Position numbers and translations under genes: made by a program
The notes under the pieces: model-generated
What the model was told of the DNA's origin: nothing
Seen by the model: only the letters and a program-made list of their open reading frames with translations
Databases searched by the model: none
Assembly: GCF_000786105.1 (NCBI RefSeq)
Contig: NZ_JTEV01000010.1
Span: 1 to 64,000 of the forward strand
From: Bdellovibrio sp. ArHS
GTDB lineage: Bacteria; Bdellovibrionota; Bdellovibrionia; Bdellovibrionales; Bdellovibrionaceae
Direction: 5' to 3'
DNA: 64,000 nucleotides
Shown here: piece after piece, positions 23,900 through 31,385 of the stretch
Layout of the letters: each line of letters opens with the position of its first letter
Position numbering within the stretch: the first letter of the stretch is position 1

Positions 23900-25426
23900 T
23901 TAGTTGGCGTAGTCTTTCGCCACGATTCCGTACTTCTCGATTTTGCGCAGAAGTGTCTTTTTCGGAATATTGGCGTGGAGGGCCGTTTGATTGATCCGTC
24001 CACGGAACGTCTTAAGAGCCTTGATAATAAACTCTTTTTCGAAGGCTTCTTTCTGGGCGTTGAAGTCCAGATTTTCAGTGCCGTTGTAAGGCAGAATTTC
24101 TTCGCTATCTAGATCTTCAGAATCAGCACCCAGATCAGAATCTTCATCGTCACCCAAAGATGCATGGGCTTGAGTAGCCGACGCAATTCCTGCAGAAGCC
24201 ACGCTTTGAGCCGTTTCCATCACTGGCGGAACATCAATCAAGTTAGTGCCCGTCGCAATCAATAAAGATTCGGGTAAAGAAGCAATCGTAATGATGTTCG
24301 ACATTTCCAAAACGAAGGCATGTTCAATCACGTTTTCAAGTTCTCGAATATTGCCCGGCCAAGTGTGCTTTTTCAAAACGGCCATTGCATCCGGAGCGAT
24401 GCCATTGATGCGTTTACCGTGGGCCTGATTGAACTTCTTGATGAAGATGTTCACCATGTGTTCCATGTCGTCTTTTCGTTCTGCCAAAGCGGGCAAGAAG
24501 ATGGGCACGACATTCAAACGATAGAACAGATCTTCACGGAAGGTGCCCGCTTTGATCATATCTTCAAGGGGTCTGTTCGTCGCGGCAATGATTCTGACGT
24601 TTGTGGGGAACTCACGGTTAGAGCCCACGGGAGTGAACAGTTTTTCTTGCAGAACACGCAGGATTTTCACCTGCATCAGTTGTGGCATATCGCCCACTTC
24701 GTCCAGGAACAAAGTGCCGCCTTCTGCGAACTGGAATTTTCCGATTTTACGTTGGTCTGCGCCGGTGAAAGAGCCCTTCTCGTGACCGAAAAGTTCAGAT
24801 TCAAAAAGATTCTCTGGAATGGCCGAACAGTTGATGGCTACGAATTTTTCATCTTTACGAGCTGAATTGTAGTGAATCGCTTTGGCAACAAGTTCTTTAC
24901 CCGTTCCGGAAGCACCACGAATCAAAACGGGCGTATCCACTTTCGCCAGGCGGTGAATAATATTAAACACCTTTTGCATCTGGGACGTGTGACCGATGAT
25001 TTTACGACCGGCTTCGTGCATGACGGGTGCGGAAGCGGCGATATTTGAAATCAAATTGTGGGCATTGACGGCTTTGTCGATCAGCTCAAGCAGTTGCTCA
25101 CTGCCGACTGGTTTAGGAAGATAGTTGTAAGCACCATCTTTGACGGCCTGGATGGCATCATTCAAGGTTGCGTGCGCGGTCATAATAATCGCGATGATAC
25201 CTGGATCGAACTCTTTAATTTGGCGAAGGGCTTCAAGACCGTTCATGCGAGGCATGTCGACATCAAGAATCACAAGATCGTATTTTTTGTCTCCGCCTTT
25301 GATCTTTTCCATGGCATTGACACCATCGAAAGCCTCGTCAACCTCAAATCTTTGAGTGACTGCGAGTGCGGATTTAACTGAGAGTCTTAAGCCCTGATCG
25401 TCGTCTACAACCAAAACCTTAAGCAT
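23900..25426 (-). CDS. NtrC-family sigma-54-dependent response regulator
   Basis: A 508-residue enhancer-binding activator. The receiver domain (1-125) has D8-D9-D10, phospho-acceptor D55 (LVILDVDMPRMNG) and K105 (YLPKPV). The AAA+ domain (about 145-390) has Walker A GASGTGKE, the sigma-54 contact loop GSFTGA (the usual GAFTGA with Ser, a tolerated variant), Walker B GTLFLDEVGDMP and the R-finger region. An acidic linker (about 425-455, DDEDSDLGADSEDLDSEE) leads to a Fis-type HTH at the C-terminus (FRGRINQTALHANIPKKTLL). It overlaps its kinase by 8 bp, is the last gene before a strong terminator, and requires RpoN for output. Confidence 0.93.
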   Translation of the reverse strand: MLKVLVVDDDQGLRLSVKSALAVTQRFEVDEAFDGVNAMEKIKGGDKKYDLVILDVDMPRMNGLEALRQIKEFDPGIIAIIMTAHATLNDAIQAVKDGAYNYLPKPVGSEQLLELIDKAVNAHNLISNIAASAPVMHEAGRKIIGHTSQMQKVFNIIHRLAKVDTPVLIRGASGTGKELVAKAIHYNSARKDEKFVAINCSAIPENLFESELFGHEKGSFTGADQRKIGKFQFAEGGTLFLDEVGDMPQLMQVKILRVLQEKLFTPVGSNREFPTNVRIIAATNRPLEDMIKAGTFREDLFYRLNVVPIFLPALAERKDDMEHMVNIFIKKFNQAHGKRINGIAPDAMAVLKKHTWPGNIRELENVIEHAFVLEMSNIITIASLPESLLIATGTNLIDVPPVMETAQSVASAGIASATQAHASLGDDEDSDLGADSEDLDSEEILPYNGTENLDFNAQKEAFEKEFIIKALKTFRGRINQTALHANIPKKTLLRKIEKYGIVAKDYAN

Positions 25427-27299
25427 GTGTACCCCCTTGCTCGATAGGTAGTTCTACCGTAAATGTGGAACCATTACCATGGGAAGATTCTACAAAAAGA
25501 CGTCCATGATGGAGTTCTGTAAAGTATTTAGCCAGATAAAGCCCCAATCCTGACCCCTTGATCGGCGAGCTTTTGGCGTTCTTGGATCTGAAAAACTTCA
25601 TGAAAATATTTGGCAGCTCATCGGCGGGTATGCCAGGGCCTTGATCGGCGACCTGGACAACGACTTTGGTGGCAGACTCTTCGCTGGAAACCATGATTTT
25701 GGTGTCTTCCGGGCTGTATTTAATGGCGTTTTCGACCAGGTTCGAGAACACTTGTTTCATCAGATCGGCATCGACCGGAATGGGAAACATGGGTTCTAGT
25801 TCGGAAACAATTTGGATGCGTTTCAGTTTCGCAAGAAACTCGTGCTTGCGAATGACTTCTTGAAGCAGGTTGTTGATATCCTTGCTTTGTAAATTAAGCT
25901 GTACGCCCTGGCTTTCGATTTTTCCGTAATTCAGAATCGCATTGATAAACTTCAAAAGATCGTCGGAAGAGTGTCGGATGGTGTCGACAGCTTCACGCTG
26001 TTGCGGACTCAGCGTCACCGGGTCCGCCAAAATCATGTCCGTCATTCCCTGAATGCGCGCAATCGGCGTTTTTAGGTCGTGAGACATCATCGAAATGAAA
26101 TTCGTTTTAAGTTCTTCAACCTGACTTAAAAGTCTGTTCTTCTGGTAATATTCCCAGCTACGTCGATTTTCGACGATCAGGCGATACGGAATGAAGAAGT
26201 AGTAGCAAAGGAAGATTGTTAAAAGCGGTGCCGCCATGGGCAACCACAGGCCACCCACCCAGAACGCTAGTGAGCTTATACCCACAAAACCGATAAGAGT
26301 GCCGCCCAAGACCATAAGACCCTGAGCGGGCTTCATGGTCAGAACAACGTGAGTCGTTAACAAAGAAGCTATCAGGATTAAAAACCAGTTTACGTATTTG
26401 CTAGCTCGTATCGGTGCCGAGTCGGTGATCAGAGTATCAATGGCGTTGGCCTGCAATTCAATCCGGGTCATGGCCATGGCATCCCGGTTGTAGGGGCTTT
26501 GAATATATTCCGCCTCATTTAAGCCAAGATCCGTACCAATCAGGACAATTTTATCTTTGAATCTTTCGGGATTCACATCTCCTTGCAGTAAGGATTCAAA
26601 AGAGGTTGAGGGAAATGATTTAGCAGGATGAAAATTAATATAAGCTTGATCGGTTCCGTAAAAATCAAAAACCCCACGGATGCTTTTTACGTTTTGAATT
26701 CCCGAGTTGAAAAGACCCGCCAAGTGTGTGGAAAGCAACGGGCGATCTTGGTAGGTTAAAATCATTCGTCGGGTGACGCCGTCTTTCGCAAAATTGACGA
26801 GATCTGTTGTCTTTGGCGACGGCGAAAGAGAGATCTGCTCAAAAGGTTGTTGTAGAACCAACTGGTTTTCTTCCCCTTTCAAAGGGGTCGAACGTCCCGC
26901 CACAAAGACATTTTTGTCAGAAACGATGTTCGATTCCCAAATGTCCTTTTCACTCGTCGCTCCAGGAGTCTCGTTGAGATCGAAGTCATAAACGACGGCT
27001 TTGGGGCTTTGGGCCTTTAGCAAACGTAAAAGTTTCGTTTGTTCGGTCGCGGACGGAAAGCCTTTATAGGTTTGAATAGTTTTTGGCGTGATATAGACGA
27101 GTTCGATATTTCCCGATGTCGAGTTGAAAAGCTTTGTGCGATTTCTAAGGTCATAAAGATAGGACTCGATGTATTCCAGGTTCGTTTGCGCTAAAAGAAT
27201 AGAAATCCCCACCGCGAATAAGACCCGCAGCGCAAGTGCTTGATAGTTGCCCTTTTTAGAGGGAACTGATTTCTCTTCGGGGGAGGGAGGAAGAGGCAT
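25419..27299 (-). CDS. CHASE2-domain sensor histidine kinase
   Basis: A 626-residue membrane kinase. TM1 lies at about 22-38. A CHASE2 extracytoplasmic sensor spans about 40-300, ending in FKDKIVLIGTDLGL, SPYNRDAM and RIELQANAIDTLI. Three adjacent membrane helices (about 304-372) follow, the standard CHASE2 layout. HisKA has H407 in SMMSHDLKTPIARI, and the ATPase domain has NLVENAIKYSP, DQGPGIP and GSGLGLYLAKYF. AAGGACTT precedes the ATG. The gene starts 28 bp after the 37-residue peptide gene and overlaps the NtrC-type regulator, so kinase and regulator form one pathway. CHASE2 ligands are generally unknown. Confidence 0.9.
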   Translation of the reverse strand: MPLPPSPEEKSVPSKKGNYQALALRVLFAVGISILLAQTNLEYIESYLYDLRNRTKLFNSTSGNIELVYITPKTIQTYKGFPSATEQTKLLRLLKAQSPKAVVYDFDLNETPGATSEKDIWESNIVSDKNVFVAGRSTPLKGEENQLVLQQPFEQISLSPSPKTTDLVNFAKDGVTRRMILTYQDRPLLSTHLAGLFNSGIQNVKSIRGVFDFYGTDQAYINFHPAKSFPSTSFESLLQGDVNPERFKDKIVLIGTDLGLNEAEYIQSPYNRDAMAMTRIELQANAIDTLITDSAPIRASKYVNWFLILIASLLTTHVVLTMKPAQGLMVLGGTLIGFVGISSLAFWVGGLWLPMAAPLLTIFLCYYFFIPYRLIVENRRSWEYYQKNRLLSQVEELKTNFISMMSHDLKTPIARIQGMTDMILADPVTLSPQQREAVDTIRHSSDDLLKFINAILNYGKIESQGVQLNLQSKDINNLLQEVIRKHEFLAKLKRIQIVSELEPMFPIPVDADLMKQVFSNLVENAIKYSPEDTKIMVSSEESATKVVVQVADQGPGIPADELPNIFMKFFRSKNAKSSPIKGSGLGLYLAKYFTELHHGRLFVESSHGNGSTFTVELPIEQGGTHA

Positions 27300-27327: not shown

Positions 27328-27441
27328 TTAGCGAACAGGGATGCAGCCTTCACCAGTTCCAGAACCGCCACCTTTAATGGCAGGATTTGGCAGAACAGGC
27401 TTTAGAGGCTTTACTTTTTTAATATGTGTTTTCTTTGTCAT
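27328..27441 (-). CDS. 37-residue candidate RiPP precursor peptide
   Basis: ATG at 27441, TAA at 27328-27330. The Shine-Dalgarno AGAGGA overlaps the stop codon of the upstream radical SAM gene, and only 9 bases separate that stop from this ATG, so translation is probably coupled. The N-terminal part is basic (seven lysines up to residue 23), with prolines at 12, 15, 18 and 20. The C-terminal part reads GGGSGTGEGCIPVR (24-37), with one cysteine at 33. A glycine/serine-rich core with a single Cys next to a SPASM radical SAM enzyme is a common arrangement for ribosomally made, modified peptides. The modification is unknown. No protease or exporter is seen beside it. Confidence 0.72.
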   Translation of the reverse strand: MTKKTHIKKVKPLKPVLPNPAIKGGGSGTGEGCIPVR

Positions 27442-27450
27442 AAGTTCCTC

Positions 27451-28737
27451 TTAGCAGGATTCCCTGCTGATTTTATAATATAATAATGCAGTACTAATCA
27501 AGCTGCGGGTGCGATAGCAAAACTGACCGTCTTTTTGATGTTTATTGCCCGTACTTTGTTTATGTATAAACATGCAGCCGCCGCCGCAAAGATAACGCGC
27601 CCAGCAGCTTTGACAGCTATTCTTTTCGATTAACGGGCTCTGATATTGTTCTAGTTTCTCAAGGTCTAAATGCGATCCTTGACCGACCTGTTCGGCCTTG
27701 TTGCCCACTTCCCAAGGACAGGTGAACAGATTGTTTTTCGCATCTACCATAAGGAAAGACTTTCCCGCGCCACAATAGTTTTCCGTTTGTTGTTGATTAT
27801 CCAATGCGGAAAAGTACTGGTCGAAGGCGCCTATTTTTCTGAGCTCCGTTTCGCCACCAAGAGTAAAAGCCTTCTTGGCAATGTGATTCATTTGCTGAAC
27901 GAATTCCTTGTTGCTGGCTTCGTCATTGTCTGCCACTGAATATGTGAATTCATATTTATCCACGTCAAATTCACGGTAGAAGTCGTAAGCCGAAACAAGA
28001 TTCATGTTATCACTGTTAAACACGCCGTGCAGAGTGAGGCGTCCTAAAGACTCTCGGGCCGTACTAAGAAGTTTAAGGCCTTCGATAACGAGTTCGGTGC
28101 TACCTGTCCCGTTTTTGGTTGGACGAGCTTTATCATTTATGCTTGCCGGCCCATCAAGGCTGATAGTGATGTTGGCTTTGATATTTTTTAGAACACTTAA
28201 TGTTTTCTCATTCATTAAAGTGCCGTTAGTGACAATTGAAAACTGCGGACGAATATTTCGACCTGCAGCCATCAGTCTTACGTAGTTTGCAATTTCTTGA
28301 ATTCCTTCTGGATAAAGCAAGGGCTCACCGCCCAAGAAGGTAATCCTGAAATTGCTATTTGCAGGAAGTCTTTCCAAAAAGAACTGCAACTGGGGCAGGG
28401 TTTTTTCGACATTTATTTTGGTTTGGGCTTCGCCGTAAGTTCCGTCGCCACCGGCTGCACAATAGGTGCATTTGAGATTGCAGATTTGAGTGACGTTAAT
28501 AGTGAGGCTGCGGATGCCGGGCTCTAGTTTACCTGATTTGACGTCGGGATTGGCGTCACTTTCCCAGATCGCCAGTTCATGGCCCGCCTCAGTCGATTTC
28601 GCGGCGTCTTCCATTGAGGCCCAAGTGTCTTCTGAAATTTCAGCGACTTCCAGATTGCGAGCATGGAACGCCAAGGGAGCGTTTTGTCCCCATTTAAATG
28701 CTACAATGTCTTTGTATCGTCGTTGTTCCATGCGCAT
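27451..28737 (-). CDS. Radical SAM/SPASM peptide-modifying enzyme
   Basis: A 428-residue protein. After an N-terminal region of about 75 residues, the radical SAM cluster motif is CNLKCTYC (C86, C90, C93). LGGEPLLYPEG and IVTNGT are SAM-binding elements. The C-terminal SPASM region has C322 and C340, then C375, C378, C384, C388 (CQSCWARYLCGGGC) and C407, which fits two auxiliary 4Fe-4S clusters as in peptide maturases. A last Cys is the final residue. The immediately following small gene is the likely substrate. The start at 28737 has weak Shine-Dalgarno support; an ATG at 28731 is an alternative. Confidence 0.88.
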   Translation of the reverse strand: MRMEQRRYKDIVAFKWGQNAPLAFHARNLEVAEISEDTWASMEDAAKSTEAGHELAIWESDANPDVKSGKLEPGIRSLTINVTQICNLKCTYCAAGGDGTYGEAQTKINVEKTLPQLQFFLERLPANSNFRITFLGGEPLLYPEGIQEIANYVRLMAAGRNIRPQFSIVTNGTLMNEKTLSVLKNIKANITISLDGPASINDKARPTKNGTGSTELVIEGLKLLSTARESLGRLTLHGVFNSDNMNLVSAYDFYREFDVDKYEFTYSVADNDEASNKEFVQQMNHIAKKAFTLGGETELRKIGAFDQYFSALDNQQQTENYCGAGKSFLMVDAKNNLFTCPWEVGNKAEQVGQGSHLDLEKLEQYQSPLIEKNSCQSCWARYLCGGGCMFIHKQSTGNKHQKDGQFCYRTRSLISTALLYYKISRESC

Positions 28738-28965
28738 TAAGGTAATGCAATAACTGTTCCAAAATGAGACGCCTGGGTAATTTTAATTAACTCAATAATT
28801 TCATGATCTTATGGGAATTAATATGGTGTGTTTTTGGCTCTATCGCCAGGGGCGTGGGAGCAAAAGGTAACTAATACAAGGTAGGACAATGTATAGACAC
28901 AGTGAGGACAAATCAGCTTCTTGTTTTGCAAGGCGGGGGCTTGAAGTGAAAGCCCCTGTTGCCGG
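28738..28965. other. 228-bp intergenic region upstream of the radical SAM operon
   Basis: No gene is visible on either strand. It must hold the promoter of the radical SAM gene and the 3' end of the J-domain gene transcript. A GGGGCTT/AAGCCCC hairpin lies at 28936-28956, without a clear U-tract. The part nearest the radical SAM gene is AT-rich (AATTTTAATTAACTCAATAATTT). Confidence 0.6.
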
Positions 28966-29856
28966 TTACATCATCGTATCGATCACACTTTTATAGAATC
29001 CGCGCCCACAGCGGGAGACATTCTCATAAAGATCAGTCGCTTTTTTTGCCTGTCTGGCTCCGGGAGAATACGAAGACCCAGCTTGAGTACGAGGCATATC
29101 AGGCTCGGGAGCTGAAGTGGTGGAGGTTCTTGGCGATTCCGTCGGCCCGGCAGCAGAGGATCGTTGCGACGTTTCCCGGTAAGACGACTCTGAGTTTGGG
29201 GAAGTCTGTGAACGATTCTGTCCAGAAGAGGAACTTCTACCTTTGGGTTCTTCGGCATCGCTAAATTCTTGGGGATTCCAGGCCTTCTCCTGACCTCTTT
29301 CCCAAGTGCCCCAGCCTTCTGATTTTTTGTGGGGGTTCACGGAGGGCTCTTCAAATTCAGGAGGCGTCCATTTGCTACTCGTTCCTGAAGTTCCTTTGGA
29401 ACTGGTGTCAAAGTCCTCAAAGTTATAGGGGCGTTCGGAAGACTGCCGCGAAGACGATGAAGATGAAGATGAAGATGAATAAGAGTAAGAAGTCCCTTTG
29501 CCCGCAGAGGATGACGAACTTTGTGAGCGCGTGTTTTGGCTTGGCTTATTGCGAAGGGTTGAATCGTAATTTCGTTTTGCGACGGGGTCAGTTAAAACTT
29601 CTCGACTGCGATTCAGTTTCTGCATCACATCTGTCGAAATTCTTGATCTTGTCGGATCTGTTGCATGCAAGTCTGGGTGAAAAATGCGCGCCATTCGTCG
29701 ATAGGCTTTGCGTATTTCGTCATCAGTTGCCTGGGGGCTGACCTCTAACAAATCATAGAAAGTTTTCGAGTTGCGAAGTCTGTCGATCTGCGCAGAAAAC
29801 TCATCGCCATAGGATAACGAGGACCATATAAGAACGAAGAAAAAAATTATTTTCAT
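28966..29856 (-). CDS. Exported J-domain protein with Ser-rich linker
   Basis: A 296-residue protein whose first 17 residues (MKIIFFFVLIWSSLSYG) look like a signal peptide. Residues about 32-98 are a J-domain with the HPD tripeptide at 60-62 (TFYDLLEVS, RKAYRRMARIFHPDLHATD, LNRSREVLTDPVAKRNYD). Residues about 100-265 are serine/threonine-rich and low-complexity (SYSSSSSSSSSSRQSS), followed by a short C-terminal segment (CGRGFYKSVIDTMM). The ATG at 29856 overlaps the stop of the upstream gene (ATGA) and follows TGGAG. J-domains normally recruit cytosolic Hsp70, so export or membrane tethering is unusual. Its partner is unknown. Confidence 0.82.
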   Translation of the reverse strand: MKIIFFFVLIWSSLSYGDEFSAQIDRLRNSKTFYDLLEVSPQATDDEIRKAYRRMARIFHPDLHATDPTRSRISTDVMQKLNRSREVLTDPVAKRNYDSTLRNKPSQNTRSQSSSSSAGKGTSYSYSSSSSSSSSSRQSSERPYNFEDFDTSSKGTSGTSSKWTPPEFEEPSVNPHKKSEGWGTWERGQEKAWNPQEFSDAEEPKGRSSSSGQNRSQTSPNSESSYRETSQRSSAAGPTESPRTSTTSAPEPDMPRTQAGSSYSPGARQAKKATDLYENVSRCGRGFYKSVIDTMM

Positions 29857-31385
29857 CGACAAACTCCAGGTTTCGTAGATTCGCGAATGGCTTTCGCCAG
29901 GCTGTCAGGTTTTTCTTTGGCCAGTTTTAAAATTTCCTGCTGTTGGTGAGCCGGGAGCTGAGACAGCACCCCTAAAAATTCGCCCATTTCTTCGTTGCTG
30001 ACCTTTTTTTGCGCCTTCTCGAAGACTTCTAAAGCAACCTTATCATTGGCCACTTCTTTCAAAGTGCCGGACAGGGCTTTCGTGGCTGCAACTTCACTCA
30101 TCTGTGCCGCCCGTGAAGCTTTTGCGGCATTTTTCATGACTTTAAATCCGGCTCCGAATGGAATCATTGAAGCCGCGGATAGGCTTGCAGAGATGAGTTC
30201 CTCATTAGCTTCAGACTCTAAATTTTGCATTTGCGAAAAACGATCACGAGATCCGGTTTCAGCGAAAGCGGATGCCCGGGCGGTTTGCGCTTCAATGAAT
30301 AGTTGGTGCGCTCGACTGGAAGAGTAGACCGTTTCCGCAGCCCCTAAGGCTGTTCCCGCGATCGCAGATCCTGCGGCCACAGTGGCTAAAGTCCCCGCCG
30401 CTGCGGTCCCCGACAGCACGAGGGCTCCGGCTCCGGCACCAATGCCTGTCGCCAGAAGAACGCCGCCGACAACAAGACCTCCCCAGAAGACGACTTTTTC
30501 CAACTTTTCATTACGCTGGGCGCGTTTGTCGTAATCTTGGAGGGTTTTGCAAATCAAGTCGAAAGAGTCTGGATTTTCCATTAGAAATCGCGCCGCTGCC
30601 GCTGGATTCGAAACGATCAAATTTTGCAAATTTTCATCAACATCGTTTTCGCCAGAGATATCGTTAAGATAGTTTTGATGAGTTTGCAGCTCCCCCTGAA
30701 CTTCCTTCAGGGCTTCTTTAACATCTTTGGCTCTAATGAACTTCTTGTCGCTTCGCTTGGTGATAGCTTTTGTATAGAAGAGAAGATCGACGCCCTCGGA
30801 AGGCGGATTGATATCTAAGTCTTTTTCCCGAACCGTGAGATCTACGGCAATATCCACGGCACTTTTTTTCTTCGCGATATCTTCCCAATATGTTTTCGTA
30901 GTATTTAATTGCGCCTGAGCATAGGAAAGAATCTTTTCTTTGGCTTTCTGCTTTCGATCTTCTTCGACGTGGCGAGCGACCTTCCCAAGATCCTGAGCGG
31001 AAGAACGAGGTGTATTTTCGGTCACGCAATTATTGCTATCCAAGGCATGAGCAGCCAAAGAGGCATCTAGATTATTTAGCGCAGCCATCGCCTTTGCATG
31101 GCCGACGGGGCACTGATTGAGCCTTTCCTTAAGCTTGAGAACCCCCATAAGGTTTTCGCTTTGCCGTAAGAGTTTTTTGCCTTCTGAACTGTCAAATTCA
31201 GGATATTGTGCGGGGCTGTTTAAAATACTTTGGTAAGTTCCGTGAAATGCACGAGTCACTTCAGTGCTATTGATATTTGCGGCTGTCCAGGCCAACTTTT
31301 TCGCGTAGCTCTCTAGGGATTCACCTCGGCCTTGAATCGAAAGAAGCAGTAGTGCGGTCACCGTAATGTAGGAAAGTGCTGACAT
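29853..31385 (-). CDS. Exported helical protein with glycine/alanine-rich hydrophobic hairpin
   Basis: A 510-residue protein with an N-terminal signal sequence (about 1-21). It is largely charged and helical (VEEDRKQKAKEKILSYAQ, EALKEVQGELQTH). Residues about 295-355 are a long Gly/Ala-rich hydrophobic stretch (VVFWGGLVVGGVLLATGIGA, then GALVLSGTAAAGTLATVAAG), resembling a membrane-inserting hairpin. No family is recognised. It is co-translated with the J-domain protein (4-bp overlap), so the two probably act together at the envelope. The ATG at 31385 has AGAAGGA upstream, inside a possible hairpin. Confidence 0.72.
   Translation of the reverse strand: MSALSYITVTALLLLSIQGRGESLESYAKKLAWTAANINSTEVTRAFHGTYQSILNSPAQYPEFDSSEGKKLLRQSENLMGVLKLKERLNQCPVGHAKAMAALNNLDASLAAHALDSNNCVTENTPRSSAQDLGKVARHVEEDRKQKAKEKILSYAQAQLNTTKTYWEDIAKKKSAVDIAVDLTVREKDLDINPPSEGVDLLFYTKAITKRSDKKFIRAKDVKEALKEVQGELQTHQNYLNDISGENDVDENLQNLIVSNPAAAARFLMENPDSFDLICKTLQDYDKRAQRNEKLEKVVFWGGLVVGGVLLATGIGAGAGALVLSGTAAAGTLATVAAGSAIAGTALGAAETVYSSSRAHQLFIEAQTARASAFAETGSRDRFSQMQNLESEANEELISASLSAASMIPFGAGFKVMKNAAKASRAAQMSEVAATKALSGTLKEVANDKVALEVFEKAQKKVSNEEMGEFLGVLSQLPAHQQQEILKLAKEKPDSLAKAIRESTKPGVCR

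Follow-up and report, generated by a model that had tools for sequence, protein, structure and literature searches.

In streptococci, Rgg/SHP loci encode a radical SAM-modified peptide beside the regulator that senses the peptide. A further described arrangement is the ComQXPA system of Bacillus, in which a modifying enzyme, a pre-peptide, a sensor kinase and a response regulator follow each other on one strand and in which the N-terminus of the kinase is variable and its cytoplasmic part conserved (PMC4008528). Trees of comQ are incongruent with the gyrA housekeeping tree in Bacillus (PMC4408185).

Here we analyzed a locus in a window of Bdellovibrio sp. ArHS, i.e. the whole stretch of 64,000 nucleotides. 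The original prediction held that an overlooked peptide gene is coupled to a radical SAM (rSAM) gene. This coupling was retained, but the pair turned out to be part of a four-gene unit in which the sensor of the neighboring kinase is coupled to the peptide and the rSAM enzyme, an aspect that the prediction had missed. The features of the cassette are as follows.

23900..25426, minus strand: sigma54-dependent (NtrC-like) response regulator, 508 aa, directly 3' of the kinase in 39/39 first-set loci
25419..27299, minus strand: CHASE2 sensor histidine kinase, 626 aa (Pfam CHASE2 2.9e-26, HisKA, HATPase_c), next after the peptide
26361..27203, minus strand: CHASE2 sensor domain, kinase residues 33-313 (Pfam range), inside the exchanged block
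27328..27441, minus strand: 37-aa precursor-like peptide with conserved HIKKVKP start and GEGCIPVR end, orthologs in 78/78 assessable loci
27446..27451, minus strand: ribosome site AGAGGA, read from the sequence, overlapping the rSAM stop codon
27451..28737, minus strand: radical SAM/SPASM enzyme, 428 aa (Pfam Radical_SAM 1.4e-16; seven invariant Cys in the SPASM region; nearest structure 5WGG)
28746..28761, minus strand: sigma54-type -24/-12 box TGGAACAGTTATTGCA a short distance 5' of the rSAM gene, score of at least 12.5 in most loci
28856..28872, minus strand: conserved upstream element, AGTTACCTTTTGCTCCC in the window, a possible activator site

As in ComQXPA, the genes are ordered enzyme, peptide, kinase, regulator, the kinase combines a variable sensor half with a conserved kinase half, and the enzyme tree is discordant with housekeeping genes. 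In contrast, the enzyme is of the radical SAM/SPASM type whereas ComQ is an isoprenyl transferase, the peptide core is devoid of the Trp which is modified in ComX, and a CHASE2 kinase instead of ComP is combined with a sigma54 regulator in Gram-negative predators. By analogy, the cassette appears to work like ComQXPA, of which it is not a member, because only generic kinase and receiver domains are common to both. With the streptococcal loci the cassette shares an rSAM-peptide pair beside a putative peptide sensor; Rgg, however, is a cytoplasmic protein of Gram-positives, whereas the CHASE2 kinase of the cassette is a membrane protein and is combined with a sigma54 regulator.

The peptide gene and its conservation

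The peptide frame at 27328-27441 (minus strand), which is unannotated, comprises 37 codons with the translation MTKKTHIKKVKPLKPVLPNPAIKGGGSGTGEGCIPVR. With the rSAM stop codon TAA located at 27453-27451 and the peptide ATG at 27441, the coordinates confirmed the predicted complete short frame, the ribosome site AGAGGA over the rSAM stop and the gap of 9 bases. Altogether 79 rSAM loci were examined, in 78 of which the region 3' of the rSAM gene was readable. A short ORF follows directly 3' in each of the 39 first-set loci and in all but one of the 40 second-set loci, the contig of the remaining one ending 31 nt past the rSAM stop, and in all assessable loci (78/78) it encodes a Cys close to the C-terminus. 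The common form of the peptide combines HIKKxKP close to the N-terminus with C-x-P close to the C-terminus. At the C-terminus C-x-P was found in about 71 of 78 loci, C-P-E in six loci of family f4 and C-E in one; the leader motif is weak in L058 and in some f4 members. The half of the peptide that had been described as lysine/proline-rich and leader-like corresponds to this conserved HIKKxKP half. The likewise predicted single core Cys stood insofar as the near-C-terminal Cys is the only reactive residue that is invariant, but one member (L221 of G244) contains two Cys.

Comparison of close pairs yielded dN values of 0.035-0.22 versus dS values of 0.43-1.5 (dN/dS ~0.06-0.2), i.e. the peptide frame is under purifying selection. 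Both observations named beforehand as counter-evidence, loss of the peptide from relatives which keep the rSAM gene and missing codon-level conservation, are contradicted by the presence of the peptide in 78/78 assessable loci and by dS values far above dN among close relatives. Neither Pfam nor NCBIfam provided a match to a named family, in agreement with the statement that the peptide could not be placed in a known precursor family. On comparative grounds, i.e. conserved pairing, purifying selection, a conserved leader and an invariant Cys, the proposed role of the peptide as substrate of the rSAM enzyme appears well supported.

A chance ORF was ruled out as a reading of the frame by its conservation and dN/dS. 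An antisense ORF of 37 aa (27341-27454, plus strand) overlaps the peptide gene and gives no sign of being a gene; as the synonymous pattern and the conserved protein both sit on the minus strand, the peptide is favored over it. In L192, two tandem, differing peptide genes ending in ...GLSCIPIG and ...GLACIPSGLPNSSSN are located between +17 and +251 from the rSAM stop.

Enzyme, sensor kinase and regulator

Alignment of the orthologs suggests the ATG at 28731 as the probable start of the rSAM gene. Among 38 orthologs the residues C86, C90 and C93 of the CxxxCxxC motif as well as C322, C340, C375, C378, C384, C388 and C407 are invariant, and this combination with the seven-Cys SPASM pattern identifies a radical SAM/SPASM enzyme. 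The nearest solved structure is 5WGG (CteB, E 1e-46). The best NCBIfam match is PapB with 189.6 bits versus a cut-off of 340, and the protein stays below every NCBIfam cut-off. With the PapB/ScfB/CteB enzymes (ranthipeptide/SCIFF) it shares the SPASM Cys pattern and a short, adjacent, Cys-bearing peptide; it differs from them in its sub-threshold scores and its linkage to a kinase, and the cassette peptides mostly carry a single core Cys within C-x-P whereas ranthipeptide precursors contain several Cys in a C-x3-D/E pattern. Assignment to the PapB/ranthipeptide maturases or their precursors is consistent neither with these scores nor with these peptides. Because CteB is closer than any other solved relative and PapB scores highest in NCBIfam, though below the cut-off, formation of a thioether at the core would be the preferred chemistry. 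Pfam gave no match to a PqqD-like RRE domain within the first 75 residues of the enzyme, and the AlphaFold model (pLDDT 64) was too weak for conclusions. Orthologs were detected in 39 of 60 relatives, the own genome included (E < 1e-80), and, across the phylum, in 81 of the 369 genomes (E <= 1e-60), all of them belonging to one order, Bdellovibrionales (family codes f1, f10 and f4).

The kinase contains CHASE2, HisKA and HATPase_c domains, as expected for a CHASE2 sensor kinase, and is the next gene after the peptide in all assessable loci. The regulator was assigned to the NtrC type from its sequence (receiver, AAA+ with GAFTGA, HTH). It follows the kinase in 39/39 first-set and in most second-set loci, several second-set contigs being too short to show it; it was not found in L197, and in L223 it was found only elsewhere. 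The order of the cassette genes is kept across three families, and the genes upstream of the rSAM gene vary between loci. Furthermore, the kinase was found in 117/369 genomes (E <= 1e-115), including families without the rSAM gene; kinase and regulator predate the rSAM-peptide pair. Immediately 5' of the cassette the window encodes a DnaJ-domain protein with a long Ser-rich tail (28966-29862, minus strand), and no such gene was found at this site in the relatives examined.

Exchange of enzyme, peptide and sensor between species

The rSAM gene, the peptide gene and the sensor half of the kinase are exchanged between species as one block, and the kinase half and the regulator follow the species tree. 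The loci L053 (genome G001) and L031 (G018) stem from genomes which are sisters on the gyrB+rpoB tree. Most bins of the flanks, the kinase and the regulator show 81-100% DNA identity between the two loci, and identity is only ~50% (36-63%) from ~2.85 kb upstream to ~1.2 kb downstream of the rSAM stop, the stretch of low identity ending inside the kinase gene at about codon 350. Comparing the window with L053, kinase residues 391-626 are 96-100% and residues 1-320 29-46% identical, and the first two bins of the regulator are 98-100% identical. The break in kinase identity thereby lies between residues ~345 and 390.

The class B genomes (G001, G005, G017 and G019) are scattered on the gyrB+rpoB tree, requiring 4 changes, and are united in a single clade by the rSAM tree (100/100) as well as by the sensor tree (100/99). 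With all p-values being nominal, as classes and groups were set after inspecting the data, this clade is rejected by kinase+regulator (p 1.9e-5; 9e-14 with a smaller set and a quick tree) and by gyrB+rpoB (p 2e-7), and the G001+G018 pair is in turn rejected by the rSAM gene (p 2e-50) and the sensor (p 3e-50). The class B peptides follow the block and have HIKKV[TA]PKKT and a CxPL end in common. In a possible second group G004 forms one clade with G009, G010, G021 and G022 for rSAM+sensor; in the same nominal sense, it is weakly rejected by the species genes (p 0.014) and not rejected by kinase+regulator (p 0.22). Given the species distance, rSAM and sensor distances correlate with 0.95, and either of them with kinase or regulator with 0.36-0.47. 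A second genus shows a weaker trend with 0.78 for rSAM-sensor, 0.45 for sensor-kinase and 0.65 for rSAM-kinase (comparison range 0.37-0.65). Such a discordance, in which enzyme, peptide and sensor disagree with the housekeeping genes and the kinase core agrees with them, resembles that of pherotypes at the ComQXPA pheromone locus; peptide pheromone systems serve bacteria to tell their own kind from others.

Linkage of adjacent genes is the main confounder of the co-exchange, which does not prove contact between the parts, because neighbors also move together by linkage and crossovers favor the conserved kinase regions. Linkage alone is made less likely by where the breakpoints lie and by the fact that rSAM and sensor match repeatedly.

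In five genomes (G018, G001, G017, G015 and G014) the rSAM gene and the gene of a second CHASE2-type kinase (~730 aa) are divergently transcribed; the Pfam CHASE2 match of this kinase is weak or absent in some of these genomes.

L031:2589-4793 and L053:2613-4790, minus strand: second CHASE2-type kinase, divergent, with exchanged sensor half and conserved kinase half, no known receiver domain found in the C-terminal ~120 residues

Between both loci the first 360 residues of this kinase are 15-38% identical and the remainder 73-100%, mostly 86-100%. From this matching split in identity it follows that the exchanged L031/L053 block spans from the core of one kinase to that of the other and contains both sensors, the rSAM gene and the peptide gene.

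Promoter, proposed signaling and rival readings

A sigma54 box with a score of at least 12.5 precedes the rSAM gene in 37 of the 39 first-set loci versus 2.9% of shuffled sequences, and a box of such a score was also found in 29 of 34 further loci versus 3.2% of shuffles. As 20 of 32 kinase-only operons also have it ahead of the kinase, the box is probably ancestral. Judged from its domain type, the cassette regulator may activate its own operon via this box. The upstream element, possibly the activator site, reads AGTTTCCTTTTGnCCC in many relatives and, in Bdellovibrio genomes, precedes the sigma54 box by ~110 bp, near -136; the copy in the window deviates and is not a strict match. Genus-wide, the strict pattern has 10 matches, 9 at the cassette operon and the other one in G007. 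A wider regulon via this element was dismissed, the strict pattern occurring at the own operon only, apart from the G007 match. In the window, the short distance between the sigma54 box and the rSAM start (28731-28761) would leave a class A transcript nearly leaderless; a class B rSAM transcript has a longer leader than class A.

With a probability of roughly 0.6, we consider the cassette to be a peptide signaling system that follows the logic of ComQXPA and is assembled from unrelated components. Gene order, purifying selection on the peptide, the sigma54 box and the co-exchange were computed in support of this reading; what we infer is the chemistry of the modification, the export, the binding of the ligand and the feedback. 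The radical SAM/SPASM enzyme would bind the HIKKxKP leader and modify the core around its single Cys, preferably via a thioether. After trimming, the modified peptide would leave the cytoplasm by an unspecified route and be detected outside the cytoplasm by the CHASE2 domain of the neighboring kinase, which would signal to the sigma54 activator, acting on at least its own operon. Several points speak against signaling: no transporter or protease was found within the cassette, the peptide is without an evident signal sequence, and kinase and regulator occur without the rSAM gene in many genomes. Furthermore, no CHASE2 structure or ligand was found, a Foldseek search with the sensor fold gave no usable match, and the strict upstream element is almost confined to its own operon. 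More tentatively, and with slightly less than even odds, the product could be a pheromone of predatory Bdellovibrionales, i.e. an rSAM-modified peptide which defines communication groups, is read by CHASE2 (by two kinases in some species) and feeds back on its sigma54 operon.

Alternatively, the peptide could be a true substrate that gives rise to an antimicrobial, a cofactor or a small molecule of another kind, with the kinase sensing something else and the genes moving together as neighbors. Some peptide-derived cofactors are likewise encoded by loci that consist of a single enzyme and a short peptide and have no transporter; the cassette genes are contiguous, and the greater age of kinase and regulator and their presence without the rSAM gene would fit as well. 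Nevertheless, we regard this as rather unlikely, as the order is kept in three families, the block boundary falls between sensor and kinase, and the rSAM-sensor distances are tightly matched in several lineages. Far less likely still is a leader ORF which couples translation of the rSAM and kinase genes and whose product does nothing. The position between both genes, the good ribosome site and the short gaps would suit such an ORF, but both ends of the peptide are conserved at the amino-acid level over three families with dN/dS ~0.06-0.2, and L192 carries a tandem duplicate.

Conversion of the core Cys to formylglycine, as performed by anaerobic sulfatase maturases at C-x-P-x-R, is improbable too. 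The enzyme shares the SPASM architecture of these maturases, which are found among its relatives (NCBIfam 3e-26; PDB 4k37 7e-22), and the window core CIPVR fits the motif. On the other hand, Pro341, which follows C340 in the window enzyme, aligns with the position of Asp277, which we take to be the catalytic base of anSMEcpe, the anaerobic sulfatase maturase; with this Asp missing, a sulfatase-maturase type was discarded for the enzyme. The Arg is absent from class B and many other cores, the substrate would be a 37-aa peptide with no sulfatase, and the thioether enzyme CteB is the closer relative (E 1e-46).

In the part of the literature that was searched, neither a paper on this operon nor a description of CHASE2 receptor ligands or Bdellovibrio peptide signals was found, and both kinds of molecules appear to be undescribed. 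If true, the pheromone reading would provide an independently built, Gram-negative counterpart of ComQXPA and the first natural ligand for a CHASE2 domain. In a predator amenable to genetics, the conserved modifying enzyme, peptide and receptor constitute a concrete, testable ligand-receptor pair and offer a possible way into communication or kin recognition during predation. The missed 37-codon gene is to be entered into annotations.

No conserved HIKK...CxP peptide was found in genomes which keep the kinase without the rSAM gene. One sequence-conserved peptide across all CHASE2 kinase operons was rejected, with a short ORF in only some rSAM-less loci and these sequences being unalike. In the kinase-only loci L069, L072, L074, L076 and L078 a short ORF preceded by a good ribosome site lies between a sigma54 box and the kinase, the putative peptides being without Cys, given an internal GTG start in L078. 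Provided that these ORFs are real, the kinase may be accompanied by a peptide also where the rSAM enzyme is missing; they are possible unmodified counterparts of the cassette peptide and, since their sequences are unalike, a lead. The genome of L070 contains the CHASE2 kinase and no rSAM ortholog, and a different radical SAM protein (499 aa, CNFKCSHC) is encoded 3070 to 1571 bases upstream of the kinase match on the opposite strand.
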